Shown here in pieces: positions 4,722 to 45,998 of a DNA stretch of 64,000 nt (positions are counted from its first letter, which is position 1; each line of letters opens with the position of its first letter). The stretch is from Chaetoceros tenuissimus. Its lineage: Eukaryota; Bacillariophyta; Thalassiosirophyceae; Chaetocerotales; Chaetocerotaceae. Under the pieces are notes generated by a model, which was not told where the DNA came from, made no database searches, and saw only the letters and a list, made by a program, of their open reading frames with translations. Where the stretch lies: the NCBI GenBank assembly GCA_021927905.1, contig BLLK01000027.1, forward strand, positions 248,001 to 312,000. The letters are read 5' to 3'. A program made the position numbers and the translations under genes.

Positions 4722-7700
4722 TTACTTTTTCTTTGCAATTCTTTGTTGTCTTATCCGAAGAGCCTTTTCTCGATTTAGTCGCATACGTTCACGTTGGGCT
4801 TCTGTCAACTTTGAATTGTTGTGAGGTACAGGAGGTTTGGGATTTCTTACTTTTGCGTCTTTCTTTTGATTGTTTTCTGCAGTAATGTTTTGATGTTGCG
4901 AAGGTTCATCTTGCTGGGATGTAGCTGAAGCTTGCGATGTCAATGAGGCATTTTGTTTCATAATTTCATGGTAACCTTGCTCTAACTCGTCAGCATCACC
5001 GCCCTCACGATGATGTTCAATGACACTTCTAATAAAACTCATCTTTCCAAGATTACGATCAGATGACGGAATAGACATTTGTGTATGCTCGGGATTCCTT
5101 CGTTTTAGTAGAGGGGTAGCAAATGCATCTTCATGAACGTGCATCATGTCAACTTGTCTGTAAAGAGAGGCACCTCCTTCATCGCTCGATTTTTGGACAC
5201 TATCGCTACATACCAATCTATCAAGGTCATCCTGCGTAAAACCTAGCTGCGAAGAATCGTTGATGAAACTATCTTGAGAGAGACCATTATCGTCTTCATC
5301 TTCTTCCGAATCAGAATCGCTCGCAGCACATTCAATGTCCAGGAATTTGCTGATTGTGTTTGATTTCTTGTGTCTCTTAGCCAGGGCTTCTACTCTATTC
5401 CTTTTTGTGCCAACTTGCACTTTAGGGTCGCTTGGTGCCGAGCTTTGAAGTAAATCTTTTTGTTCGCTAGCAGGAGTATTCGTCAGGTCTATCTCATATG
5501 TATCTCCTTTTCGTTTCCTTGTCATTACTCTTTTCGAGGGGTTTGCTTTAGACTCGGGTGTATCTTCTAATTGCGAGGTCGCATTTTCCATTTTATTTTC
5601 AGCTGTCATGGGTGTATCAGTAAGTTCCCCTGCTAGAGCTGAAGTTGTCGCAGGCTTCCTAAAACGAGGGAGAAGAGGAGTCTCTTCCTGAGACGAACTA
5701 AACGATACATTTGTTTTCTTTGAAGCTAGTCGTCTCCTGTTTACAATAGGGGTTTCATCCACATCACTTGTTTCTTGGGCATGATTCTCTGTACGAAAAA
5801 CAGTGGACTGTATTTGTGGGTTGTTTTCATTAGAACATTTTGAGGGATTATTCAAAGCTGGGACATCGTTGGCATCTTTTGGTTCGTGATGACCTTTGTC
5901 GGGCACGTCTTTATCTTTAATCGCTGGGGATGAGTTGATTGCATCACATAGTTTTGCAGTAGAACAACTAAAATTAGTTTCCTCCTTCATGCTTGAGTTT
6001 TTGTCATCACCAATATTTAGTGAAAGCGACTTCTTTTGTTCAGGATTTTTGTCGACTAAACATTCTTTCTGAGGCGAAGAAAAATCCTCGAGTTGATCCA
6101 TTTTTGCATTTAGATCAGTTTTTGGAGAATTTTCTTCGTGTCCTTTGCAACTTTCCTCATCTTCTGAAGAAGATGAAGAGGAATCCTGAATGTTTAAATC
6201 AAAGCAAATCGATTCTTCGTCGCTACTGCTCATATTGATCTCAAAGTTTAGACTTCTTGAAGATTCAGAGCAACTGGCATTATCATCCATATTTGTGCCC
6301 TCCTGAATCATAAAACTTTCTTTGGTAGAGTTCAGAGGAGCTGGTACATTTAGGTGTTCAGATTGAAGATTGACTTGTCCACCATTTGGCGACTGGGTAG
6401 AAGCTCTAGAATGGATACTCTCAATGGCTTTGGGTGATTCGTTGCAATGGAGTACAGCGATACTGGTATTCATAGTTTCTTCTTCTTTCGTGGATATTTC
6501 CGCATCATTATTTTCTCCATTATTTAATGTCTCATCATCATTTGAGTTTTGTATGTCCTCTACAAATTGAGGCGATCCATGCCCCAAGTCCGATTCATTG
6601 CAAAACTCAGGACTGGTTGTATTTGTATCTAAATGCACTCCAGATCCATTCCCTTCATCTTGTAGACCAAAGATGATTTCACTAGCTTTTGCTTGGAGAC
6701 GATATCCACTGTCTTCGTCAGTTGTTACAACTCCAAAGATAGATGACAAAGTATCTTCAAAACCAGTAGTGCAATGTTTTGTCGGGCTTTCTAAAACTAC
6801 ACATTCAATGCTTTCTTGAGATCCAAATACAACATTTGCAAATTCATCTTCACCATAATCATAGTCATGATTCTTAGACTCTTTAGCCACGTCACATTTC
6901 TCGGTTGGAGAAAGAAGGAGAATCTCAACATCATCTTCAGATTTGTCTTTTTGAACCTCCTCACTTCCGTCTGGGCTTTCAAAGCAATCCCTGAATTTTC
7001 CAAGAAGATTCCTTTTCTCATACCTCTGCTTTGAAGGCACGATATCTTCTATTCTAGCATTTATGGCCCTCGATTTTTGTATCTTTTCATTCATTGTCCT
7101 CGATTTCTCGTTCATTTTACGGTCCTTCATGACAGTTGCTTCCAATTTATTGAGTATAGAGCAAGATCTCCCCGTACCACGTGAAATCCGATTCCCAGTA
7201 AGCACATTTCGCTGCCAGGATTTCAAAGCACTTTTACGAAATGATGGATTCATGTTACATTCCCCAAAATTTTGTAATCTAGTATGGTTTTCTTTGAAGC
7301 TTAGCTTCCAAGCATTTGAGTCTATTTGAATTCGTGGTGGTTCTTTCTTTTGTCCCTTTCCTTTTTGGTGACTGTGACCACCAACTTGAGACATTCTATA
7401 TTCGCGAATGATATTCATATTTCGTTTTTCCATTGTAGGACGTGAGGGTAAAAGGGGAATGTTCTTGTGCATCGTGAAATGTTTTTCACCTTTTTTCAAT
7501 GCATTCCATAGGCGCTTTGCATCGGCATTGGATTTATCGAGCTTTTCTTCTTCCATGCCTTCCATTACTTTGGGGTAAAACAGGGACAATTATGATGAGG
7601 AACTAAATAAAATCTATATGGAGCATTTAGTGATGTGATAGAAACTTACCTAACCATATCACTTCACCGTCACGAGATCGCCCAGTTCGCCCTATTCTTT

Positions 7701-10410
7701 GTAGATTTCTTATAGGAGAACGGACACAATCAAAATTAATGATTAAATCAACGCTTCCAATGTCAAGTCCTTCTTCTCCAATAGCTATTGATTGTAATTC
7801 ATTAGTTATCGCAAAATTCAGAGGCATATCTTCAATGAGTAAACTTACATGTACAAACCAAAATGTTGTATTTTCCATCCTTGAATTCTTTGATAACTTT
7901 TTGCTGGGTAGCTTGGTTCATCCCTTTGGTTACTTTAGCCTTTCCATCCTTGTCTTTCTCGCTTCCTGAACCTTGCCCCACAAATTCTGTTGGTTTCAAT
8001 CTAGATTTGCTTGATCTTGGCTTACTAGCTTGAAGCATTGTGACAATTTCTGTTACGGACTTTCGCAAATTCGAAAATACAATGGCTCTTGTGTCCTGAC
8101 CAATGGCCTCTGACTTTTCAAAATGATCTTTCAATATCTCCTCCAATTTCTGTAATTTGGGGTTGTTTAATTGCAAGTCGGAAATGTCATACTGGCTAAG
8201 AGGTTTATTCACATTCTGGGTTCCAACCAACGTCTCCCACAATGTCATAAATTCATCAGTTCGTTGGACCTGCTTTGCATATGCAGTGTTTAATTTCATA
8301 AATTTGAATAATTCATCTCTTGCCGAATTGATACCAGATTGCATCAGTTGAGTTCGTGCGGTCAGTAGTGCTTGTGCAACATTGAGGCGCGGAAATAGCA
8401 CCGATTTATTCATATGCGCGTTCTCTGGCTTATTTAGATCCTGTTTTGCTGCAATGATGGTATATGGTTGCATGTTTGATATTGAACCTCCATATTTACT
8501 TAGTGCACCGCACTTCTTGAGGTCTGTCGCAACAGGCTCAATTATTTTGAGTAGACGTTTTTCAATTGCCTTAATAGCATCAGTTTGCTTAATTATTTTG
8601 GTTCCCTCATGACGATTAAACATGTATGGTTTAATTTCGTCATCTGTATCAACATATGCTTCAATTTTAGAAGCACCCAAGTTTGAAATGATTGTCTGAA
8701 TTGTTTTAAGGTCTTTTCCAGGAGTTGCAGAAAGGCCTACAATTCTGGCTTTAACGTTCTTCTCCAGGAATAAACTTGTAATCTTGTTGAAGGCAAATTT
8801 TTTCGTTGCTTTATGAGCTTCATCTATCACCAAACACACGACATCATTGATATCTAGACTACCAGCTTTAATATCTCTTTCTACAGTTTGGGCTGTACAA
8901 AAGAACACTCGCCTTTCTCTCCATAGACGCGATCGGTTTCCTGACTTATTGTCTCCAGTAATCTCAGCAGTATCTGTTTCGGGAATTCCCTGAAAATGAA
9001 AATTATGGTTAGAAAAATTGAAAAGAAAGGATAAATGTGATAAACATATTCAAATATATTACATGAACATACCATGATGTTGTAACACGCTCCTATTTGC
9101 TGGGAAACCAATGGTTTTGTAGGAGCAAGGAAAATAATTTTACCAGTTGGAAACCATCTATAGAAATTGTACATAACAACAGCCGCAATCAAAGTTTTTC
9201 CCGTTCCTGTAGGGATGGCTACGAGAGTATTGTTGTGAATTGCAGTGTTGCATATATTCACTTGATATGCACGTTCTTGATATTTTGTACTAGTTGGATA
9301 GATCCAGGTTTTCGATGCATCCCCTTCCACCAGAGGCACTTTTCCCGGTTCATAACCACGTTGAAGTACATTGCGCTCTACAACATTGGGATTTCCAAAT
9401 GTCAGAGTTTGTTGGTTTCTACCTACAGCTATTTTTTGTGTTTGTTTGCGCTTTGCAGGTTTCTTTTTGCTCACGGCCTTTTGAGTATCTACATTGGTTT
9501 GTGGAACAGGTTGTATACTTTTACCTTGTTGCATGTTGGAAGTTGTCGAATGCTGCTGATTTACATTCGGATTTGAAGTATGACTACTTGATGTAGAAGT
9601 ATTCCTAAATGTATTTGTCGAATATGGATTCAACTGGTTGACTTGTCGATTGGCATTACTTGCCCCTTGATTTCCTAATGTGACATTGCTCTGATTCATC
9701 CTTTGACTTGCATTACGATTCAAATAAGGATTGACTGTTGTAGAAGATGTGACAACGTTTGAGTTCCCACGGTAATTTGATATTTGAGCAGGCTGACCTC
9801 CTCTCATGGTATTGTTTTGACTTGTAGCATTATTTGTTGTCTGGATAATAGTTCGTGATTGACTTTCATTTGCATTCACCATATTATTCCTAGCATTATT
9901 TGCAGAATAATTATTTCCCCTTGGTACTGACGCAGCACCTTTATTTGTAGCATATGGATTACTAATGATTGACTGTTGCGTTTTCTTTTGTGGTTCACTA
10001 CTTGGAGTAATTCGTGCTGTATTCGTAGCTATAGTCTGATTCTGTTGCCTATGAAATCCCCCATTATGTACATTATTTCCCTGTTGCCGTTGCTGCATAT
10101 TATTTGATCTGACACTACTACTGTTATTGTTTTTCTTTTGATTGGCATAGACATTGACAACACTCTGCCTATTCTTGCTAGCATTCTGATTTGAATTGCG
10201 TGCATTTGAATTCTGAGTATTTGCAACTGTCTGACTCGGGCCAGTATGGCCACTACTATTTCCATTTTTGCTGACATCTACTGTTTTCCCCTGGACAAAG
10301 TCTCGCATCTGTTGCTTCGTCACTCTCAAAGAATTGCACATTTGACATCGTTGGGCAGGAAACAGATGACGAAATGTACAAACAGAGCAATTCCATTCAT
10401 CACTCGGCAT
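4722..10410 (-). CDS. FANCM: FANCM/Mph1/Hef-type replication-fork helicase
   Basis: Four exons (9073-10410, 7849-8989, 7650-7784, 4722-7567) with introns of 83, 64 and 82 bp; joined product 1,819 aa. In order: an NZF/RanBP2-type zinc finger (W6, C8, C11, C22, C25); an Asn/Gln/Ser-rich disordered stretch (about 50-310) with a QQTLTFG motif at 333-339 that weakly resembles a PIP box; the SF2 helicase core with Walker A IPTGTGKT (399-406), [15 protein letters not shown] (502-505), SAT, and motif [10 protein letters not shown] (about 860) encoded by the small exon 3; then about 950 residues of acidic disordered tail including a DSFINDSS segment. The final 32 residues form a basic helix like RPA32-binding motifs. 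Exon joins restore [12 protein letters not shown] and [14 protein letters not shown] exactly as in FANCM. No ERCC4 nuclease or HhH domain is present. Expected role: fork remodelling, crosslink tolerance and crossover suppression. Confidence 0.92.
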
Positions 10411-12886: not shown

Positions 12887-15800
12887 ATGGTTGCAGAAAA
12901 TGTTAACGAGAGCCTAACAGCTCTTCGTCAGCAAATCCTTCTATACGATGGACTTGATTCAAAAAGTGAAGCAGTGAAATTTGCTTTGAAAACGATTGAC
13001 GATGTTCAGAAGGAAAGGGTGCATGTGGCAGACAAGGATGTGCCTAGGCAACCAGCAGAGATAACAATAGATAATGGCAAACTAGAAGAAGTGAAAGTCA
13101 GGAAAATAAACAAAGACAAAGTTGAGAAAAAGACCTTTGGAGTTCTCTCTTTCGTCTTTGCTTTTTTGCGATTCTTGATTGCTGAACTACCTCTTGTAGT
13201 TTTGATGTCATTTGCTGTCGCTGCACATGTTGGTGAATATGTGTATAGAGCTTATTTGGACCCTCAAATTGATCTAATGGAATATACCGATCTTAACAGA
13301 ACAGTTGATCGTACTTTTTATCAAATGAATTGCGATGCTAGTGATATTTCTACACTCGATCCTCAAGATCTATATATACAAAGTCACTTCACTACAAAAA
13401 ATTCTGTGGATCATATGTTGACGCATGGAATGAGTGTATACAAGAATATTTTGAAGAAAGATACTGCAATCAAGCTAAGAGAATGGATACTTGAGCGAAA
13501 CAAGTCACTCAACAAAGGCGATGAGATTGATGTCATTGCAAATGAGAATCGCTGGTCATTTTACATTGGGGCAAACGAAGATCCTATTGTGACTGAAGCA
13601 ATCAAAGAAGTTGCAAATCATGAAATCTTTCTTCCAGCAGTGGAGAAGATCGTCGGTACGAATCCTGCTATCATTGAAATGACGGCGATCACTTCAGCTT
13701 ATGGCGCAAAAGATCAAATTTGGCATTATGATATTCCTGCAGAAGGATCTCCTGCAAAGTATGGTCGATCATTTATCCCCAGCTATTCGCTTTTCATGAA
13801 TCTTCAAGATACGACTGCTGCAATGGGAGCAACTGAGGTATGCCCCGGAACATATAGATGCACAAACTCGGGAGATTTTGACGCTTACCAAGAAGACGGC
13901 TTTCCAGTTAGTGGAGATGGTGTATGGGAGCAAGGCGATGCAGTGTTTATGAACCAGCAAAGTTATCATCGAGGAGCAGCACATACCGATCCAAACGGTC
14001 CTCATAGAGTATTATTTATCATAACTTTCGCCCCACGACCAATGGATATTAAATATGAGACACGTCTAGTTGGACAGGGAGGATCTTATTCCTTAAGATG
14101 GGATATGTGGGGACATACATTAAATGATTTCCGATCATCAGAGTCAAGAATGGTACAGCCTTGGACAACCTTGCGCTCATTGGGAATTTATAAACCAAAA
14201 GAGTATCAATGGGGATGGGATTGGATCACACAGCAATCCATGCGTTTAGCAAATGGAGACACAGGATACGATGAAAGTGAGTTTGAGCCTATGGTGGACG
14301 ACATACGTAGCTTCCTACCAAATATTTTCAATGTTGAAGTATCAAGGGGGATGGGATACAAAGAATATTTTCAAAGTATGACCAAGAGGTTCAAAGAGAT
14401 ATTTACCAAGATTGCTTTGTGGGCAAGTGGTGTCTATGTTGTCATCTCTTTATATGTTTCTGTACTCCTTCATGTGGTACTTTCGAGACGTGAATATCAT
14501 ACATCACCTATCAAGGGTGCCATGAGATCTATTTCGCGTGTTGCTATGCTTGATGCAGTAGTAGTATGTATCGGCTATCTACTTATCTGCCGTACAGACA
14601 ATTCTGACTGGGCAAAAGCTATCAGGTCTAAAACATTATACTCATCGGCATTTCTCTCTGTACCACAAATAATAGAAGAAAAGCCTCTCGCAGTTGTATC
14701 CAGAAAAGATATGTTAATTAGTGACCGTCTTGATTTCAAGAATTTAGGTAGTCTCAGTGATATGCTTGACTTTCATGGAGGAAATGTGAAGTTTAGATCA
14801 GTTATAAGCGGAGGATCAAAGATTGTTCAGAATTTGACCCCTGAAGAAGTAGAAATGTTAGTTGAGGATGTTGTAGATGGTTTAAGAAGAGAAGGGACAC
14901 GTTTGCTGCTTCAAAATCACAATGCAGACTGGGTTGAGTTGTCTGTTGAAGATGCGAAAGCTTACACTAAGCAGTATTTATTTCTGGAGACGAACAATGC
15001 TGTGAAAGCAATACATAGAGAGTCTCGGTACCTCGAATCTTCCTTTAAGTATGGGTTGAAATACAAGGGTGCTATGGCACAAAGGTATGGCCCTGCGCTT
15101 GTAAAAAATCTTACAAAAAGCATTCTTGACAATGCAGGGGTTCCATACTTCGATCCTTACCCTTTGTCTGGGAACAGTTTAAGTACACCCAAGTCATCAA
15201 GTTCTTCTCAAAAGAAAGTAATGCCAACGCCTTTTGGAATGCCTAGATTCGCATTATTATATCCTCAAAAATCCTTTTCACTGCAGCGAACCACATCATC
15301 TATTCCAAAGAAGATTCAAATAGAAAAAGGAGGAATGTTGAAAGTTGGAGACATTGTGGAAGCCAAATATGAAGGGTCTTACAACGAGTTCTACAAGGGA
15401 CAGATTATGGACGTTCAGGAAGGTAATATTGTTGATGTTTTGTATTCAAATGGATTATACAATGAACTTGACCAGAGTCATGTGAAAGCTTTTGTTCCGT
15501 ACTACGAAGGGGAATCAATCGAAGTCAAGAGATCCGTAGATGGTGCCTTTTTGCCAGCAGTAGTGACAGGCATTATATCCGAAACAGCAATTTACGTTCG
15601 TATGAATGATAACAACAAGAGACGAAGAGTAGATCATTCAAATGTAAGAAGAGTGAAACAGTTCAAGGTGGGGGATCCAGTGTTTGCCCCGTTCAATGAC
15701 AGTGGTGAATTCTTTCCAGCCAAAATAGTTAAGGAAAACGCTGACGGAACAGTAAATTTATTATTTGACGATGGTGATAAGGAAAACAATGTAGAGAAGA

Positions 15801-15887
15801 GAGTTCTCGAAGCTATCGAGTACATTTAGATTTAAAACTGAGAGTATAGATCGAAGGTATTTACAGTCACATTAGCAATATTTGTCA
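12857..15887 (+). repeat. Inverted duplication, left arm
   Basis: This segment is repeated in inverted orientation at 19128-22191. Homology begins about 30 bp before the start codon and ends about 58 bp after the stop codon, so it covers one whole gene with little flank. The arms are separated by 3,240 bp holding two unrelated genes. Confidence 0.9.
12887..15829 (+). CDS. Membrane PhyH-type 2-oxoglutarate dioxygenase with Tudor/Agenet-like tail, copy 1
   Basis: 980 aa, intronless. A charged N-terminus is followed by a long hydrophobic segment (about 84-120), then a phytanoyl-CoA-dioxygenase-like domain (about 175-385). Iron ligands can be read as H280-x-D282 (WHYDI) and H361 (SYHRG), with R374 (GPHRVLF) as the 2-oxoglutarate-binding Arg. 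Two further membrane segments lie near 508-530 and 548-566 (LWASGVYVVISLYVSVLLHVV; MLDAVVVCIGYLLIC). The last about 170 residues hold three tandem Tudor/Agenet-like units, each starting like 'hkVGDhVeAk...G.fy.gqI' (for example VGDIVEAKYEGSYNEFYKG and VGDPVFAPFNDSGEFFPAKI). The substrate is unknown. It is about 92% identical to the inverted copy at 19185-22157. Family of each domain is fairly clear; the combination is unusual. Confidence 0.85.
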   Translation: MVAENVNESLTALRQQILLYDGLDSKSEAVKFALKTIDDVQKERVHVADKDVPRQPAEITIDNGKLEEVKVRKINKDKVEKKTFGVLSFVFAFLRFLIAELPLVVLMSFAVAAHVGEYVYRAYLDPQIDLMEYTDLNRTVDRTFYQMNCDASDISTLDPQDLYIQSHFTTKNSVDHMLTHGMSVYKNILKKDTAIKLREWILERNKSLNKGDEIDVIANENRWSFYIGANEDPIVTEAIKEVANHEIFLPAVEKIVGTNPAIIEMTAITSAYGAKDQIWHYDIPAEGSPAKYGRSFIPSYSLFMNLQDTTAAMGATEVCPGTYRCTNSGDFDAYQEDGFPVSGDGVWEQGDAVFMNQQSYHRGAAHTDPNGPHRVLFIITFAPRPMDIKYETRLVGQGGSYSLRWDMWGHTLNDFRSSESRMVQPWTTLRSLGIYKPKEYQWGWDWITQQSMRLANGDTGYDESEFEPMVDDIRSFLPNIFNVEVSRGMGYKEYFQSMTKRFKEIFTKIALWASGVYVVISLYVSVLLHVVLSRREYHTSPIKGAMRSISRVAMLDAVVVCIGYLLICRTDNSDWAKAIRSKTLYSSAFLSVPQIIEEKPLAVVSRKDMLISDRLDFKNLGSLSDMLDFHGGNVKFRSVISGGSKIVQNLTPEEVEMLVEDVVDGLRREGTRLLLQNHNADWVELSVEDAKAYTKQYLFLETNNAVKAIHRESRYLESSFKYGLKYKGAMAQRYGPALVKNLTKSILDNAGVPYFDPYPLSGNSLSTPKSSSSSQKKVMPTPFGMPRFALLYPQKSFSLQRTTSSIPKKIQIEKGGMLKVGDIVEAKYEGSYNEFYKGQIMDVQEGNIVDVLYSNGLYNELDQSHVKAFVPYYEGESIEVKRSVDGAFLPAVVTGIISETAIYVRMNDNNKRRRVDHSNVRRVKQFKVGDPVFAPFNDSGEFFPAKIVKENADGTVNLLFDDGDKENNVEKRVLEAIEYI

Positions 15888-16973
15888 TATAAAACTTCAC
15901 GATTGTTCCTGAAGTTTTTTTCAAGGGCTCCGAACTCAGCCCCAGGTTGTTTGTGATCTTTCTTCATTCCTACTGACCTTCCAGGGAGAGAATTTTAATC
16001 AATAGGTGCTTGATGTGCTTGGGCAGGAACGTACGTACTGTTCTAGTCCTTGGACATAGAATAGAAACAAGCCAATCTTATTTCAAGCTTATTTTCACTT
16101 CTATATGACGCTGGAGTGCATGACATAGTAATCATTCTTGCATTAGAACCGAAAACACAAGTCTAGATAATAGAACTTCAGCATGAAGAACATTTTCTGA
16201 CATGGAATCCAGAGAACATACTTAAGCTTTGCATATTAGACTAAGAGCTGTCTTCCAAGGAAAGCAATGACCAAGCAAGTCGGATTAGACCCTTAGTAAG
16301 GTAGTAAGGTCATTGCAACATTCATATTGTTTTAGGCATTTTGACAATCTCCAAGATTTGCTAGAGAAGTGAGGTGGACTTTCGACCCACCTCCAACTTA
16401 TTACCGGATGGACCTTTAAGTTGTAAGTTGTGTGGCTATCAGTTGAATATCACATGTTTGAGATATGTAGTGGAAGGAAAACACCCAATGCGGCTTTAAT
16501 TTTATAAGTACTGTACTTCGTGCATGTTTTCAACTTCCCAGAACTCTGTTTGTAAGCTCCTTTTCTCGTCATCTTGTAGTACGTAGGCTACCAAGTTCTA
16601 GAATTATATTTCACTCAATAGTGAGCTTTTATTGTGTTTTTGTAATATATATTAAATTGATTATGCCAAACAATCAAATCAAATAGAAATGATCAAATAG
16701 ATCTTTCATCATAATCTATGAAAATAAATATGGGTTGAAAAGACCTGCGAGCAGAGCGAAGTGAAAGAATAAAATAATGACACCCATAGCTAGCTACGTA
16801 GCCCTATCAGAATTGACTAGCCGATAAAGTCGGCATCAAATTTTTCACACTACAAAAACGACAAAACGTGAAGGAGCGATGAAATCATCAAAGAAAGGAC
16901 ATCACATCACTTCTGTTCCGTAAAATCAATATAATTGACCAAATATATGGGCTCAACACCATAATCGCGGAAG
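15830..16973. other. Gene-free spacer inside the inverted duplication
   Basis: 1,144 bp without a convincing open frame. The first 58 bp are the end of the left arm. It contains three TACGTA palindromes (16032, 16580, 16795) and a small hairpin at 16371-16393 (GAGGTGG, 9-nt loop, CCACCTC). I see no tRNA, transposon end or conserved ORF. Confidence 0.5.
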
Positions 16974-18323: not shown

Positions 18324-19049
18324 ATGGCTTGCACAGGACATTCACACGATCATGATCATGAAGATCAACTTGGGCTTTCTCTTTTACAATATATCGACCA
18401 GAGTCAAGTCTTCTGTTTGAATGAACATAGGGAGAACGCTGGAAGGTCAGTCTTGAAGCCTTATGAGGATAGACTTAGTTTGGAACCAAATCTTCAATCT
18501 CCTAGAGATGACGATGATATTGAGTTATTGATGCATATTCCATTTACAGAGGCTGTTACAATCAGATCTATTTGCGTTAGTGGACGAGCGTCAATATTTA
18601 AACCTGATGACGAAGATGAATCAACATCTGCTCCATTTACTTGCAAAGTTTTCGCCAATCGTACTGATTTGGATTTTGACACAGCGCGGGAATTAGAGCC
18701 TGATGTTAAAATTGAGCTTTTGCCACCTGAACATTTGGCAGAGGTCCAAACAGACGATTCTAAAGGACCAGGGACTCTTGACTTTCCTTTGCGACCTGCA
18801 TCGAAATTCAAGATGTGCACTTCCATAACTCTTTTCTTCGGCGACAATTATGCAAAAATCATGGCCGAAGCTGAGGGCAATGACGATGAAGATGTTATTC
18901 CTACAGAAATAAATTATATCGGCTTCAAAGGAAGCGGTACATCCGTAAAACGTCAAGCCGTGGAATGTGTCTACGAGACAAGAGGCATGAAGAAAGATCA
19001 CAAACAACCTGGGGCTGAATTCGGAGCCAAGGAGGGTCCTTCTATCTAA
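18324..19049 (+). CDS. PITHD1: PITH domain-containing protein
   Basis: 241 aa, intronless, full length. The His-rich start (MACTGHSHDHDHED) and the following SLLQYIDQSQVFCLNEHRENAGRSVLKPYEDR match the beginning of PITHD1 homologs. The beta-rich PITH domain runs from about 40 to 215 (DIELLMHIPFTEAVTIRSICV...NYIGFKGSGT). The PITH domain is also found at the C-terminus of thioredoxin-like protein 1, where it binds the proteasome; PITHD1 itself is implicated in proteasome regulation in animals. Here there is no thioredoxin domain. It converges on the second PhyH-Tudor copy with a 135-bp gap. Confidence 0.92.
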   Translation: MACTGHSHDHDHEDQLGLSLLQYIDQSQVFCLNEHRENAGRSVLKPYEDRLSLEPNLQSPRDDDDIELLMHIPFTEAVTIRSICVSGRASIFKPDDEDESTSAPFTCKVFANRTDLDFDTARELEPDVKIELLPPEHLAEVQTDDSKGPGTLDFPLRPASKFKMCTSITLFFGDNYAKIMAEAEGNDDEDVIPTEINYIGFKGSGTSVKRQAVECVYETRGMKKDHKQPGAEFGAKEGPSI

Positions 19050-19127: not shown

Positions 19128-22100
19128 TGACAAACATTGCTAATGTGAATGTAAATATCTTCATCTATACTCTCAGTTTGAAATCTAAATGTACTCGATA
19201 GCTTCGAGCACTCGTTTCTCTACATTGTTTTCCTTGTCACCATCGTCAAATAACAAATTTACTGTTCCGTCAGCGTTTTCCTTCACTATTTTGGCTGGAA
19301 AGAATTCACCACTGTTATTGAATGGGGCAAACACTGGATCTCCAACTTTGAACTGTTTCACTCTTCTTACATTTGAATGATCTACTCTTCGTCTCTTGTT
19401 GTTATCATTCATACGAACGTAAATTGCTGTTTCGGATATAATGCCTGTCACTACTGCTGGCAAAAAGGCGCCATCTGTGGATCTCTTGACTTCGACTGAT
19501 TCCCCTTCGTAGTATGGAACAAAAGCTTTCACATGACTCTGGTCAAGTCCTTTGTCAATTTCGCCATCTGAATACAATACATCAACAATACTACCTTCCT
19601 GAACACTCACAATCTGCCCCTTATAGAACTCGTTGAATGCCCCTTGATATTTGGCTTCCACAATATCTCCAACTTTCAACATTCCTCCTTTTCCTACTTG
19701 AATCTTTTTTGGAATGGATGATGTGGTTCGCTGAAGTGAAATAGATCTGTGAGGATATAATAATGTGAATCTAGGCTTTCCAAAAGGCTTTGGCATTTCT
19801 TTCTTCATAGCAGAACTTGACGACTTGGGATTATTCAAACTGTTCCCAGACAAAGGGTAAGGATCGAAGTATGGAACCCCTGCATTGTCAAGAATGCTTT
19901 TTGTAAGATTTTTTACAAGCGCAGGGCCATATCTTTGTGCCATAGCACCCTTGTATTTTAACCCATACTTGAAGGAAGATTCGAGATACCGAGACTCTCT
20001 ATGTATTGCTTTCACAGCATTGTTCGTCTCCAGAAATAAATACTGCTTAGTGTAAGCTTTCGCATCTTCAACAGACAACTCAACCCAGTCTGCATTGTGA
20101 TTTTGTAGCAGCAAACGTGTCCCTTCTCTTCTTAAACCATCTACAACATCCTCAACTAACATTTCTACTTCTTCAGGGGTCAAATTCTGAACAATCTTTG
20201 ATCCTCCGCTTATTATAGATCTAAACATCACATTTCCACCATGAAAGTCAAGCATATCACTGAGACTACCTAAATTCTTGAAATCAAGACGGTCACTAAT
20301 TAACATATCTTTTCTGGATAAAACTGCGAAAGGCTTTTCTTCTATTATTTGTGGTACAGAGAGAAATGCCGATGAGTATAATGTTTTAGACCTGATAGCT
20401 TTTGCCCAGTCAGAATTGTCTGTACGGCAGATAAGTAGATAGCCGATACATACTACTACTGCATCAAGCATAGCAACACGCCAAATAGATCTCATGGCAC
20501 CCTTGATAGGTGATCCAAAATGTTTATTTCTCGAAAGTACCACATGAAGGAGTAAAGAAAGAAACAAAGAGATAACAACGTAGACACCACTTGCCCACAA
20601 AGCAATCTTGGTCAATACATCTTTGAACCTCTCTGTCATACTTTGAAAATATTCTTTGTATCCCATCCCCCTTGATATTTCAACATTGAAAATATTTGGT
20701 AGGAAGCCACGTATGTTGTCAACCATAGCTTGAAACTGACTTTCATCTGCGTATCCTATGTCTCCATTTGCTAAACGCATGGATTGCTGTGTGATCCAAT
20801 CCCATCCCCATTGATACTCCTTTGGTTTATAAACTCCCAATGAACGCAAGGTTGTCCAAGGCTGTACCATTCTTGACTCTGATGATCGGAAATCATTTAA
20901 TGTATGTCCCCACATATCCCATTTTAGGGAATAAGATCCTCCCTGCCCAACTAGACGGGTCTCATATTTAATATCCATTGGTCGTGGGGCGAAGGTAATG
21001 ATAAATAATACTCTATGAGGACCGTTTGGATCGGTATGTGCTGCTCCTCGATGAAAACTTTGCTGGTTCATAAACACTGCATCGCCTTGCTCCCATACAC
21101 CATCTCCACTAACTTGAAAGCCATCTTCTCGACAGGTTCTGTCTGAATCTGAATTTGTGCATCTATATGTTCCGGGGCATACCTCAGTTGCTCCCATTGC
21201 AGCAGTCGTATCTTGAAGATTCATGAACAGTGAATAGCTGGGGATGAATGATCGACCATACTTTGCAGGTGATCCTTCTGCAACAATATCATGATGCCAA
21301 AATTGATCTTCTGCGCCATAAGCACTTGTAATAGCTGTCATCTCAATTATTGCTGGATTCGTACCGACGATCTTCTCCACTGCTGGAAGAAAGATTTTAT
21401 GATTTGCAACTTCTTTGATTGCTTCAGTCACAATAGGATCTTCGTTTGCCCCAATGTAAAATGACCAGCGATTCTCATTTGCAATGACATCAATCTCATC
21501 GCCTTTGTTGAGTGACTTGTTGCGCTCAAGTATCCATTCTCTTAGCTTGCTTGCAGTATCTTTCTTCAAAATATTCTTGTATACACTCATTCCATGCGTC
21601 AACATATGATCTACAGAATCTTTTGTAGTGAAGTGACTTTGTATATATAGATCTTGAGGATCAAGTGTAGAAATATCACTAGCATCGCAATTCATTTGAT
21701 AATAAGTACGATCAACTGTTTTGTTATGATCGGTATATTCCATCAGATCAATTTGAGGGTCCAGATATACTCTATACACGTATTCACCAACATGTGCAGC
21801 GACAGCAAATGACATCAAAACTACAAGAGGCAGTTCAGCAATCAAGAATCGCAAAAAAGCAAAGACGAAAGAGAGAACTCCAAAGTTCTTTTTCTCAACC
21901 TTGTCTTTGTTTGTTTTCCTAACTTTCACTTCTTCTAGTTTGCCATTATCTATTGTTATCTCTGATATACCATTTGTTTTCTCGCGTTCTGGTTGTCTAG
22001 GCACATCCTTGTCTGCCATATGCACCCTTTCCTTCTGAACATCGTCAATCGTCTTCAAAGCAAATTTCACTGCTTCACTTTTTGAATCAAGTCCATCGTA

Positions 22101-22191
22101 TAGAAGTATTTGCTGACGAAGAGCTGTTAGGCTCTCGTTTGCATTTTCTGCAACCATATTAGGAAGTTAGATAGAGGAAGAAATTTTTATG
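19128..22191 (-). repeat. Inverted duplication, right arm
   Basis: Reverse-complement counterpart of 12857-15887. Identity extends about 57 bp past the stop codon (to TTTGTCA) and about 34 bp before the start codon. Three short indels relative to the left arm add 10 residues to the encoded protein. Confidence 0.9.
19185..22157 (-). CDS. Membrane PhyH-type dioxygenase with Tudor/Agenet-like tail, copy 2
   Basis: 990 aa, intronless and intact. Same layout as copy 1: N-terminal membrane segment, PhyH-like domain, two more membrane segments, three Tudor/Agenet-like units. The iron-ligand motif is retained with a change of the middle residue (WHHDI for WHYDI), as are the distal His (SFHRG) and the Arg (GPHRVLF). 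It carries an 8-residue insertion near residue 57 and about 77 substitutions against copy 1. Substitutions cluster: eight fall in a 17-residue stretch just before VSGDGVWEQGD, while about 165 residues after the last membrane segment differ at only two positions. Both copies look functional, suggesting either recent duplication or continuing gene conversion. Confidence 0.85.
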   Translation of the reverse strand: MVAENANESLTALRQQILLYDGLDSKSEAVKFALKTIDDVQKERVHMADKDVPRQPEREKTNGISEITIDNGKLEEVKVRKTNKDKVEKKNFGVLSFVFAFLRFLIAELPLVVLMSFAVAAHVGEYVYRVYLDPQIDLMEYTDHNKTVDRTYYQMNCDASDISTLDPQDLYIQSHFTTKDSVDHMLTHGMSVYKNILKKDTASKLREWILERNKSLNKGDEIDVIANENRWSFYIGANEDPIVTEAIKEVANHKIFLPAVEKIVGTNPAIIEMTAITSAYGAEDQFWHHDIVAEGSPAKYGRSFIPSYSLFMNLQDTTAAMGATEVCPGTYRCTNSDSDRTCREDGFQVSGDGVWEQGDAVFMNQQSFHRGAAHTDPNGPHRVLFIITFAPRPMDIKYETRLVGQGGSYSLKWDMWGHTLNDFRSSESRMVQPWTTLRSLGVYKPKEYQWGWDWITQQSMRLANGDIGYADESQFQAMVDNIRGFLPNIFNVEISRGMGYKEYFQSMTERFKDVLTKIALWASGVYVVISLFLSLLLHVVLSRNKHFGSPIKGAMRSIWRVAMLDAVVVCIGYLLICRTDNSDWAKAIRSKTLYSSAFLSVPQIIEEKPFAVLSRKDMLISDRLDFKNLGSLSDMLDFHGGNVMFRSIISGGSKIVQNLTPEEVEMLVEDVVDGLRREGTRLLLQNHNADWVELSVEDAKAYTKQYLFLETNNAVKAIHRESRYLESSFKYGLKYKGAMAQRYGPALVKNLTKSILDNAGVPYFDPYPLSGNSLNNPKSSSSAMKKEMPKPFGKPRFTLLYPHRSISLQRTTSSIPKKIQVGKGGMLKVGDIVEAKYQGAFNEFYKGQIVSVQEGSIVDVLYSDGEIDKGLDQSHVKAFVPYYEGESVEVKRSTDGAFLPAVVTGIISETAIYVRMNDNNKRRRVDHSNVRRVKQFKVGDPVFAPFNNSGEFFPAKIVKENADGTVNLLFDDGDKENNVEKRVLEAIEYI

Positions 22192-42602: not shown

Positions 42603-45540
42603 TCAATTAGGACCTCCTGATTCTTTCAGTGCACCACCTAATACATCCAGATAAAGTTTCAAGTCGTCGTTCCCAATGCCAAATGAAATTCTAATGGCGT
42701 CATACACCAGAAATTGTAATGCAACAATCAAGGTGTAGAAAAACATTCTCACACCCAAACCTCGAAACAAGGCTTTTGTTCCGCCTTCATTTGCCAACTT
42801 TTGAAAAGTGACCAAAGGACCATCATCGCTTTTTGCCTTTTTCATCTGAGATATAGTCGCATCGGCTGGATTCGAAACTACAGCAGCGCAAATCCCGCCT
42901 AAGGTACCGCCCGCTAGGCTCACCAAAAGAGATAATTTTATATCTTCAACAGCAGCAGGGAACTGCTGATAGAGATATTCTGTTGAAAGGTCGAATACAG
43001 TAAATTTTGCCACAGTAAAAGGGATTTCCTTGAGTAGGAAAGCAGGCAGAGCATTAAAAAGACCATCGAGTCCCTCTTCATCGATCATGCGGCGAGCAAC
43101 ACCAAACACATCACTAGCATAGTCTGGCTGTGCAACGCTACGAATTCGAATCGCTTCTGAAGGTGTTAATGTGAACGCGCCAATGACTGCAGCAGTGAAC
43201 TGATTGTGTACAAGTGAAAATATTAGGACCAAAAACGATAAAAAGTAAAATATATAAATATACAAAGTCACTCACAGACGATAGTAAAATAATTGGAACC
43301 TCATAGCTCGATGCTAAATCACCAGCGATTTCAGTATAGAATCGTCTAAAGAACTCAATACAAGTGTAGACTATACCACCGTTGATGAAAAATCCTATGA
43401 ACGTTGGAGCCCAGCCAGCGAAGAAACCTTTCACACCACTATCCTCAGAAATCTTTTTGAAGCTGGTGAAAGGGTCGGGGTAGAGGTCTGGCTTGGTCTG
43501 CATGTTCGTTTTTACTACATCAATTGGTGTCAGCACTAAATGAACGGTGGAACAACATATCGCCCCTGCAAGATAAAAACGAAGCAATGTGCTCAAATCT
43601 ATTTCCTTTTCCCGCTCGATAGGAGATCGCCCTCGTGGACCAAACATAGGGTTAAGAGGTTTTCCAGGAGACACACTGTCTTTCCAGTCATAGTCAAGTA
43701 TATCGTCTCCAGCTACAATATCATATCGTTTCAATTCATTATTATAGAGCAGTCCAATGCCGGAAGGAAGTAATGATAGTAGCTGTGGACTCGTGTTCGA
43801 AGTCCCACCTGTCCAGAATGGCATTGGAGTGTTCGAATTTTCATCGCCTTTTGCTTGAATTTTTTGCTTCAACAATGCTTTTTCAAATACTATAGCCTGA
43901 TTATCGTTGGCCTTCCTGAAACTTTTGTATGAATTTGTCTCTGCAACACAAAAGGCTCTTGCCTTGGCAGATTCAGAGAATTTCCCTCTCAAATCAAGTA
44001 AAGTCTTTGACATATCCTTAGAGCCTGCAAATTCATCGACATTCAAACGAAATTTTTTCACGACAAGAGGATCTAACATGTTCAATCCAGCTGTTGGTGG
44101 TGGTTCGTCAATCACCAAATCTAATGGTTTCTCCGTAGCGTAGCCCTCACCTGGGTCAATAATCTCGATTGATCCAACTTCATATTCAAGCATTGCTTTT
44201 GCTTGACATGTCTTACTTGCATCGGCATCTGATGAGACAGAGTCTACTTTGATAAGAGGAGTACTTGGAGGGGCGATAGTAACTTGAATTTGATCATCCT
44301 CAGTATATCCATAACAAGGATCGATTATTTGAATACTTTCTATCCTTCCTTTGTTTTCACCACTTTTGAAAACAGTAGCTTCGGCTGTTGCCGCTCTTGA
44401 TTCGGCTCCTTTATACGTACTCAAATTTGGTGGAGAGATGGTAACCATCGGTGGCTTTGTGTAGCCTTTACCTCTATTTTTGATATCTACGTCAATCCTG
44501 AGCAACCTTGAGGAAGGTCGGAGTATAGCTCGTCCTTTTGCAATTTTGCCTGATTCATAAACTTCAGGAGCTGGAAAATGAACACCTGGTTGGCCATACC
44601 CATTTGCGTAACCCCTTCCAGGTTTGAGAATCTCTACTCTATCTACCTTTCCATCATCAATCGCCGCTAACAGTTGTGTCATCATCTCTGTTGGCTGATT
44701 ACTCTTCATCACACCAAACAACAATGCAATTTGTCGCCGTGCTTCCTTCACCTCTCTTTTTCTTCTCAAACGTTCGTCGTCAGACATTGTCTTTTCGTCA
44801 ACAAGGTAGTCAGAAGATTTAGGACCACTTCCTACAAATCCTACTCCTCCCCCGTATCTATCTACTAATGATTTCATCAACACCTTAGGTCCTCCGCTAC
44901 TATTGCCTAGATTGCTCATATTTTCAATGTTGTCATTTTTCAAATCCAGAAACTCTTGTAGACCAACTTCCACACTCGCAGAGAACATTGCAAAATGTTT
45001 CAATCTAATCTCTTTTACTTGTTCAGCAGTTGATGTACTAGGAATATCTACTGCCCCCCTTCTATACCACCACTTTTGGCATTCTTTGTCAAAAGAAAGC
45101 AAAAATCTAGATAAGTAAGTAACAAATCGTAAGTCGTAAACGGATTCAGCTTGATACAACACAATTCCACTACGTCTATTTATGGGTGAAGATGTCCATG
45201 GTATTTGAGATGGTTCTGGTAGTGCTTCCGCTTCATGAGGGTATATTGCTATGGATGTAGTCATCAAAACAGAAGACAAAAACATTCTTCTCGATTCATC
45301 ATTTCTTCCCACTTCGCTCAAAGGACTTTGAGAGTATGATACCGTAGAATTCCTTTTGTCGATATTTGCTAGAACTGATAAAAAGTCTTCTCCACCATAT
45401 ATTTCCTCTGCATTTGCCTTGGCTCTTTGATTTATTTTATTTCTCAATTGATTCAAAGATATCAAAGGAGAACTATGAAATCCATTGACGAGGGTTAGGA
45501 CCGTGGCAACGACAGCAGAGGAGAGGGAAAGATTTCGCAT
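42603..45540 (-). CDS. Plastid-targeted phosphate-carrier-like protein with long N-terminal beta-repeat domain
   Basis: Two exons, 43276-45540 and 42603-43199, joined in phase 0 across a 76-bp intron (LLSS-FTAAVIG); 953 aa. The start gives MRNLSLSSAVVATVLTLVNGFHSSP, a plastid-type signal, followed near residue 85 by RRMFLSSVLMTTSIAIYPHEAEALP, resembling a twin-Arg thylakoid signal. Residues about 300-480 carry four repeats like 'I.IIDPGxGYTxPPxVxIxPP' (GRGYANGYGQP, GKGYTKPPMVTISPP, CYGYTEDDQIQVTIAPP, GEGYATEKPLDLVI). The C-terminal third holds three mitochondrial-carrier repeats with signatures TPIDVVKTNMQ, TPSEAIRIR and NPADATISQ. The second repeat (EEGLDGLFNALPAFLLKEIPFTVAKFTVFD) most resembles phosphate carriers. 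Carrier family is certain; location and substrate are inferred. Confidence 0.85.
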
Positions 45541-45998
45541 TATATACTTCTGGGAAATTAGCCTTTGGATTTGTATGCTTTTTGGATCTCTTATTCTCAA
45601 TCGAGGTAGTAGCTTCCTAAACAATACCTACAAAGAGGAAGAGATGGAGTAATGCGTATCTTTTTGGCATCTTTCTCGTTTGAGAGAATTTGGAATTCGG
45701 GATATTTTGACATTTTCGGAGTGTTTCGCTGTCAGAACCCGGAAATTGTGTATTTTTAAATTTTCGCATGTTTACACATAGTCTTAGTAGTTGTCATACA
45801 AAGACATATTTTGGAGGATATTACAAATTCAATTTCAACGCGCAATTAGCGCAAAATAATAATCAATAGGAACTGGTCATTCGTTCGGCTCGTACATCTT
45901 CTAACTAATTCTTGATGACTCATTCATTACTATGTTGAATAATTCATTTGTAATCGCACTTACAGTACGGTACTTTATTGGGATGATCCAATTTACTT
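45541..45998. other. Intergenic spacer
   Basis: 458 bp between the carrier start and the 3' end of the glycosidase gene on the same strand; the presumed carrier promoter. AT-rich, no distinct element. Confidence 0.4.

Follow-up and report, generated by a model that had tools for sequence, protein, structure and literature searches.

The 64,000-nucleotide window analysed here, positions 248,001 to 312,000 of the forward strand of contig BLLK01000027.1 of the diatom Chaetoceros tenuissimus (GenBank assembly GCA_021927905.1), contains an intron-free open reading frame of 980 amino acids (aa) at 12887..15829 on the forward strand, termed copy A, which unites membrane segments, a predicted PhyH-type oxygenase and Tudor/Agenet-like units in a single protein. 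The same combination had been claimed in an earlier note drawn up from the letters of this DNA alone, and it was borne out; the full-length inverted second copy of the same architecture, copy B (19185..22157, reverse strand, 990 aa), had been overlooked there. The order of parts in copy A is N-terminal region, first membrane segment (TM1), PhyH domain, TM2, TM3, a DUF6824-like domain and three Tudor/Agenet-like units. On the basis of these sequence features we interpret copy A as one gene for a membrane-anchored PhyH-family 2-oxoglutarate oxygenase with a putative docking tail, and give the full reading, in which oxygenase and tail face the cytosol or nucleoplasm, somewhat less than an even chance. 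All coordinates are those of the window, and the parts of copy A lie on its forward strand.

Hydropathy analysis of copy A indicated membrane segments at approximately aa 81–119, 504–535 and 544–571. TM1 (aa 83–119; 13133..13243) is a long hydrophobic segment, compatible with a single span or a re-entrant hairpin, while TM2 and TM3 comprise aa 510–532 (14414..14482) and aa 549–571 (14531..14599), respectively. The PhyH part sits between the first and the second of these segments, as the earlier note had stated for the oxygenase. When the whole proteins were scanned against Pfam, no family reached its cut-off in copy A or copy B, and NCBIfam and PHROGs yielded sub-threshold or unnamed matches only. 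Profile searches of the individual regions gave a divided result, the Tudor/Agenet tail exceeding curated cut-offs when scanned alone and the PhyH part staying below its Pfam cut-off and emerging by profile–profile comparison.

The PhyH-type 2-oxoglutarate oxygenase domain, matched by Pfam in copy B and by hhalign, covers approximately aa 151–390 of copy A (13337..14056). The four residues previously put forward as its Fe(II)/2-oxoglutarate site are all present in copy A, H280 and D282 within the HxD motif H280-Y281-D282 (13724..13732; H-H-D in copy B) and the distal H361 and R374 at the two ends of the segment HRGAAHTDPNGPHR (13967..14008), where the okaE chains align with copy B. They correspond to H288, D290, H369 and R382 of copy B, so that the predicted Fe(II) triad and the 2-oxoglutarate-binding arginine, whose roles are assigned by alignment, are found in both copies. 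The Pfam model PhyH (PF05721) did not match copy A at E ≤ 1 and scored 19.9 bits with the whole copy B protein and 21.9 bits with its domain alone, not reaching the cut-off of 22. Because Pfam was insufficient for either copy, a profile–profile comparison was made with a bacterial PhyH profile built from 30 of the matching loci (60 of 200 genomes had a match). It resulted in an hhalign probability of 90.7 and an E-value of 1.2e-6 over 180 columns, compared with probabilities of 0.08–0.84 for the 11 controls (one reversed and ten column-shuffled profiles). The HxD motif and H361 are in register in this alignment, which stops short of R374. By this profile–profile comparison, the domain is assigned to the PhyH family.

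Among bacterial proteins, the sole distant PhyH relative was P0003 at locus L032, found in one of 398 genomes, in whose translated stretch Pfam recognises PhyH and no other family; it scores 60.4 bits with Pfam PhyH and shares 28% identity with copy B over 160 columns. The top matches among solved structures were okaE chains, with E-values of 0.052–0.058 for copy A, 0.024–0.027 for copy B and 0.027–0.033 for a two-copy profile, followed by SptF chains (E 0.86–0.95); all of these matches are weak. Both okaE and SptF are fungal natural-product enzymes acting on small natural products. The two copies resemble the PhyH family and okaE in the HxD...H...R site and in the region of the GAT-x-V-x-x-G motif, and the spacing from histidine to arginine is the same as in okaE, whereas the membrane segments, the C-terminal DUF6824-like domain and the Tudor units set them apart from the family. 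PHYHD1 and related nucleoside 2'-O-demethylases are likewise PhyH-family oxygenases, with eukaryotic members among them, and membrane or Tudor parts are not mentioned for them in the abstract (PMC12709175); nothing observed in the two copies points to a nucleoside substrate.

The C-terminal tail was found to consist of three Tudor/Agenet-like units, as the earlier note had proposed, with passing Pfam matches in units 2 and 3 and sub-threshold ones in unit 1. Scanned alone, aa 806–980 exceeded the cut-offs of Tudor_3 (34.9 bits, cut-off 25.8), Agenet (31.1 bits, cut-off 27), DUF4537 (30.9 bits, cut-off 27) and SGF29_Tudor (26.6 bits, cut-off 23.8), all four of which are also surpassed by the isolated tail of copy B; 53-BP1_Tudor was just over its cut-off in the copy A tail (22.4 against 22 bits). 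Unit 1 (aa 818–870; 15338..15496) resembles unit 3 with an hhalign probability of 72.9 and 33% identity over 39 columns. The Agenet-like unit 2 (aa 871–923; 15497..15655), to which the Agenet match belongs, is unlike unit 1 (0.76) and unit 3 (1.92); a basic cluster, KRRR, is located at aa 911–914. Unit 3 (aa 924–980; 15656..15826), which accounts for the Tudor_3 and SGF29_Tudor scores, matched PHF20 chains with E-values of 0.0031–0.027 and 53BP1 chains more weakly (E 0.13 and up), and is also matched by Crb2 and SGF29 models. The chain with the lowest E-value, 2ldm (0.0031), is deposited as 'Uncharacterized protein' but resembles 3p8d and 3qii, both of them PHF20 chains.

PHF20, 53BP1, Crb2 and SGF29 are soluble proteins of the nucleus and are not known to carry an oxygenase. 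Unit 3 shares its alignment with these Royal family readers and differs in a cage that is only partly kept. At the positions which we take to form the 53BP1 cage, i.e. W1495, Y1502, F1519, D1521 and Y1523, unit 3 carries F936, F943, F960, D962 and D964, four of the five being conserved in their aromatic or acidic kind. Judged from these alignments, recruitment of the oxygenase by a methyl mark via the Tudor units is possible. A Foldseek search with an AlphaFold2 model of the tail returned 389 matches at E ≤ 10, the best at E 0.15 and none at E ≤ 0.001. Nearly all of the best 50 of these 389 are Tudor, Agenet or Spindlin chains by title or protein name, the exceptions among them being 4c5i (MBTD1), 4uhv (VgrG1) and 8ram (Sen1 complex). 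This modelling result leans towards a Tudor fold, short of proof.

Between TM3 and the Tudor units, a DUF6824-like domain not noticed before was detected at aa 629–698 (14771..14980). Its Pfam match (PF20710) amounts to 24.9 bits with an E-value of 2.9e-5 in copy A and to 24.0 bits with an E-value of 5.2e-5 in copy B, both under the cut-off of 27. A sequence search of the PDB with this region gave E 0.13 at best, the name DUF6824 was absent from the literature searched, and the domain was absent from the one genome and the 14 control genomes scanned, an uninformative result. DUF6824 is a domain of diatoms and stramenopiles, and the two copies provide a protein setting for testing it.

The comparison of the two copies provides the main evidence that the whole frame belongs to one protein. 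They form an inverted duplication of ca. 3 kb with 93% identity over 3071 aligned DNA columns, and 902 of 990 aligned protein positions (91%) are identical. Since the codon alignment was laid over the protein alignment and has in-frame gaps built in, a nucleotide alignment was made as a check; two of three scorings produced five gaps of 24, 3, 3, 3 and 3 bases, and under the third the small gaps at about aa 333 and aa 856 were broken up, their parts again adding up to multiples of three. In the codon alignment, the differences are distributed over codon positions 1, 2 and 3 as 52, 40 and 86, and the overall ratio of replacement to synonymous change (dN/dS) is 0.29. Regional values are 0.20 for the N-terminus, 0.23 for PhyH, 0.29 for aa 391–500, 0.13 for the DUF6824-like domain (four synonymous and two replacement differences) and 0.35 for aa 701–805. 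In unit 3, dN/dS drops to 0.02, with about ten synonymous differences against one replacement (p 0.003, uncorrected, for a region chosen after viewing a table of 12 regions). The whole fusion including its Tudor end thus looks translated and under purifying selection, and the case for translation of this end together with the rest is strongest in unit 3, where replacements are nearly absent.

The longest identical run between the copies is 151 nucleotides; when the 163 differences were placed at random 5000 times, a run of this length arose in 2.4% of the trials. The patchy identity suggests some gene conversion between the copies, and regional dS values are therefore rough. As a separate observation, the TM2–TM3 region (14387–14596, aa 501–570) differs from its inverted counterpart by about 15 replacement and three synonymous changes, a weak signal (Fisher p 0.011, uncorrected, the region being likewise picked from the 12-region table). 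To judge from these counts, TM2–TM3 looks relaxed or adapting in one of the copies.

A first scenario for the function of the fusion takes the lamin B receptor as its model, in which a Tudor domain is joined to a membrane sterol reductase of the inner nuclear membrane (PMC5617974). In view of this protein, the earlier note went too far in calling Tudor units unexpected on a membrane-bound hydroxylase; the pairing of a membrane-anchored oxygenase with Tudor units is uncommon, not unprecedented. In our scenario, the protein would reside in the endoplasmic reticulum (ER) or the nuclear envelope with the oxygenase and the tail facing the cytosol or nucleoplasm. The Tudor array would dock it to a protein or nucleoprotein partner of methylated or basic character, and a lipid or protein close by might be hydroxylated by the oxygenase, so that the whole would work like the lamin B receptor, with an unrelated enzyme. 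Both combine Tudor and membrane-enzyme parts within one polypeptide. In the lamin B receptor, however, the Tudor domain is N-terminal and followed by eight membrane segments, whereas here the Tudor units are C-terminal and the membrane segments about three; the enzyme families are unrelated, C14 sterol reductase giving no Pfam match at E ≤ 1 in either copy and the enzyme being of the PhyH type. Should methyl marks be read by the tail, the fusion would represent an independent solution to the task of the lamin B receptor, or a reader outside chromatin.

The topology bears directly on this scenario. Provided that TM2 and TM3 both span the membrane, PhyH and the tail would lie on the same side; the N-terminus would lie opposite PhyH if TM1 is a single span, and a re-entrant TM1 would alter this topology. 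All Tudor/Agenet domains known to us are intracellular, and on this ground and on the lamin B receptor model we rate the cytosol or nucleoplasm above the lumen as the probable side. Several observations weigh against the interpretation of copy A as a cytosol- or nucleoplasm-facing oxygenase with a methyl-reading tail. Net charges of the flanks are +4 (aa 65–84), −3 (aa 118–150), +2 (aa 484–506), +3 (aa 533–548) and 0 (aa 570–600); should the +4 before TM1 and the +3 in the TM2–TM3 loop mark the cytosolic side, PhyH and the Tudor units would be lumenal, a placement that these charges mildly favour. The nuclear envelope as location is derived from Tudor biology alone. Aligned with the assumed 53BP1 positions, unit 2 has no cage-like residue set, and in the partly kept cage of unit 3 phenylalanine replaces tryptophan and aspartate the last tyrosine. 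Constraint is uneven, dN/dS being 0.34 in unit 1, 0.44 in unit 2 and 1.66 in TM2–TM3. Finally, the AlphaFold2 models, based on two sequences only, are of unusably low quality, with a mean pLDDT of 28.7 (whole protein) and 36.7 (tail), the latter neither rejecting nor proving the Tudor fold.

The positive-inside balance of the flanks would fit a hydroxylase of the secretory pathway. On this view the protein would be a type II membrane protein whose PhyH, DUF6824 and Tudor parts lie in the ER/Golgi lumen; there, secreted proteins would be bound at their methylated lysines by the Tudor units and hydroxylated by the oxygenase, the obvious clients in a diatom being silaffins. Six sequons that occupy equivalent positions in the two copies, five of which lie C-terminal to TM1, agree with such a location, and hydroxylation of silaffin trimethyl-lysines at the delta position is documented (PMC4557024, whose main text does not contain the word 'hydroxylase'). 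Nevertheless, we consider a secretory hydroxylase unlikely: the intracellular nature of the Tudor/Agenet domains known to us speaks against it, no hydrophobic stretch ahead of TM1 in the hydropathy profile of copy A could act as a cleaved signal peptide, and the nearest solved PhyH relatives act on small natural products. In its most specific version, the hydroxylase would be tethered to the membrane on the lumenal side, recognise methylated lysine on secreted proteins through its Tudor units and hydroxylate trimethyl-lysine or neighbouring residues of silica-forming cell-wall proteins. This version is very improbable; if true, it would mean a methyl-mark reader and writer shifted from chromatin to biomineralisation. 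The okaE and SptF chains as best solved matches on the PhyH side, all weak, would fit a membrane hydroxylase of small molecules or lipids, whose Tudor/Agenet units would by now be plain protein–protein or scaffold modules without methyl reading. The residue changes in units 2 and 3 described above are in line with this, as is the replacement of aspartate by asparagine in unit 1 of copy A (YSNG, compared with YSDG in copy B). On the other hand, unit 3 belongs to the most constrained parts of the protein and therefore probably does something specific, and we regard this alternative as a whole as less likely than not. That no family passes its cut-off in the whole-protein scan might also reflect a misread gene model, in which two adjacent genes, or the products of a splice or frame artefact, are joined by chance. 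We rejected this explanation and assign it a nearly negligible probability, as the frame is kept through every junction in both copies, their 980 and 990 codons being free of stops, the gaps are multiples of three in two of three scorings, and the differences accumulate at third codon positions; the two separate genes which the earlier note had named as a possible refutation are unlikely because copy B keeps the frame across every junction.

Proteins with the architecture of copies A and B were found in none of the collections of viral contigs, genome contigs, phages and plasmids (the plasmids with the PhyH part only), which are prokaryotic or viral and silent on eukaryotes. Locus L001, the only one obtained from the genome contigs, was dropped as spurious, its translation reading as LysM/transglycosylase-like. 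Literature searches on pieces of this domain order retrieved nothing on it in titles and the beginnings of abstracts. The kinds of domain are known or nearly known, while their order (TM–PhyH–two TM–DUF6824–three Tudor/Agenet) appears unfamiliar, to our knowledge and as judged from these searches.

The flanks of the duplication allow its direction to be proposed. An intact PITH-domain gene (18324..19049, forward strand; Pfam PITH E 1.1e-39) is the convergent neighbour of copy B, and downstream of the copy A stop codon a 46-nucleotide remnant of the 3' end of this gene persists (15926..15971), forming an inverted repeat with 18983–19028 at 96%. Since the neighbouring gene is intact at B and a fragment at A, the arrangement indicates copying of the block in the direction from B to A, with copy B as the probable parental locus. 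Upstream, the similarity between the copies ends 30 bases before the ATG of copy A (blastn start 12857), which suggests that a promoter of its own probably drives copy A. This late onset of similarity also led us to consider copy A as a retrocopy; the inspected flank shows no poly-A tract following the PITH remnant.

The genes around copy A are of eukaryotic nuclear character and include those for an N-myristoyltransferase, a NUBPL-type P-loop NTPase, PITH, Rrp15p, PPR, mitochondrial carrier and choline kinase proteins. An open frame of 955 aa on the reverse strand (4722–7589) has no Pfam match at E ≤ 1. At 43138–45624, also on the reverse strand, a frame of 828 aa contains one match to a mitochondrial-carrier repeat near its C-terminus (aa 683–765) and no other Pfam match at E ≤ 0.01. 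Two overlapping reverse-strand frames, 7832–8908 and 8881–10410, share a DEAD/ResIII helicase between them, one containing its N-terminal and the other its C-terminal motifs, which points to an intron or a frameshift.

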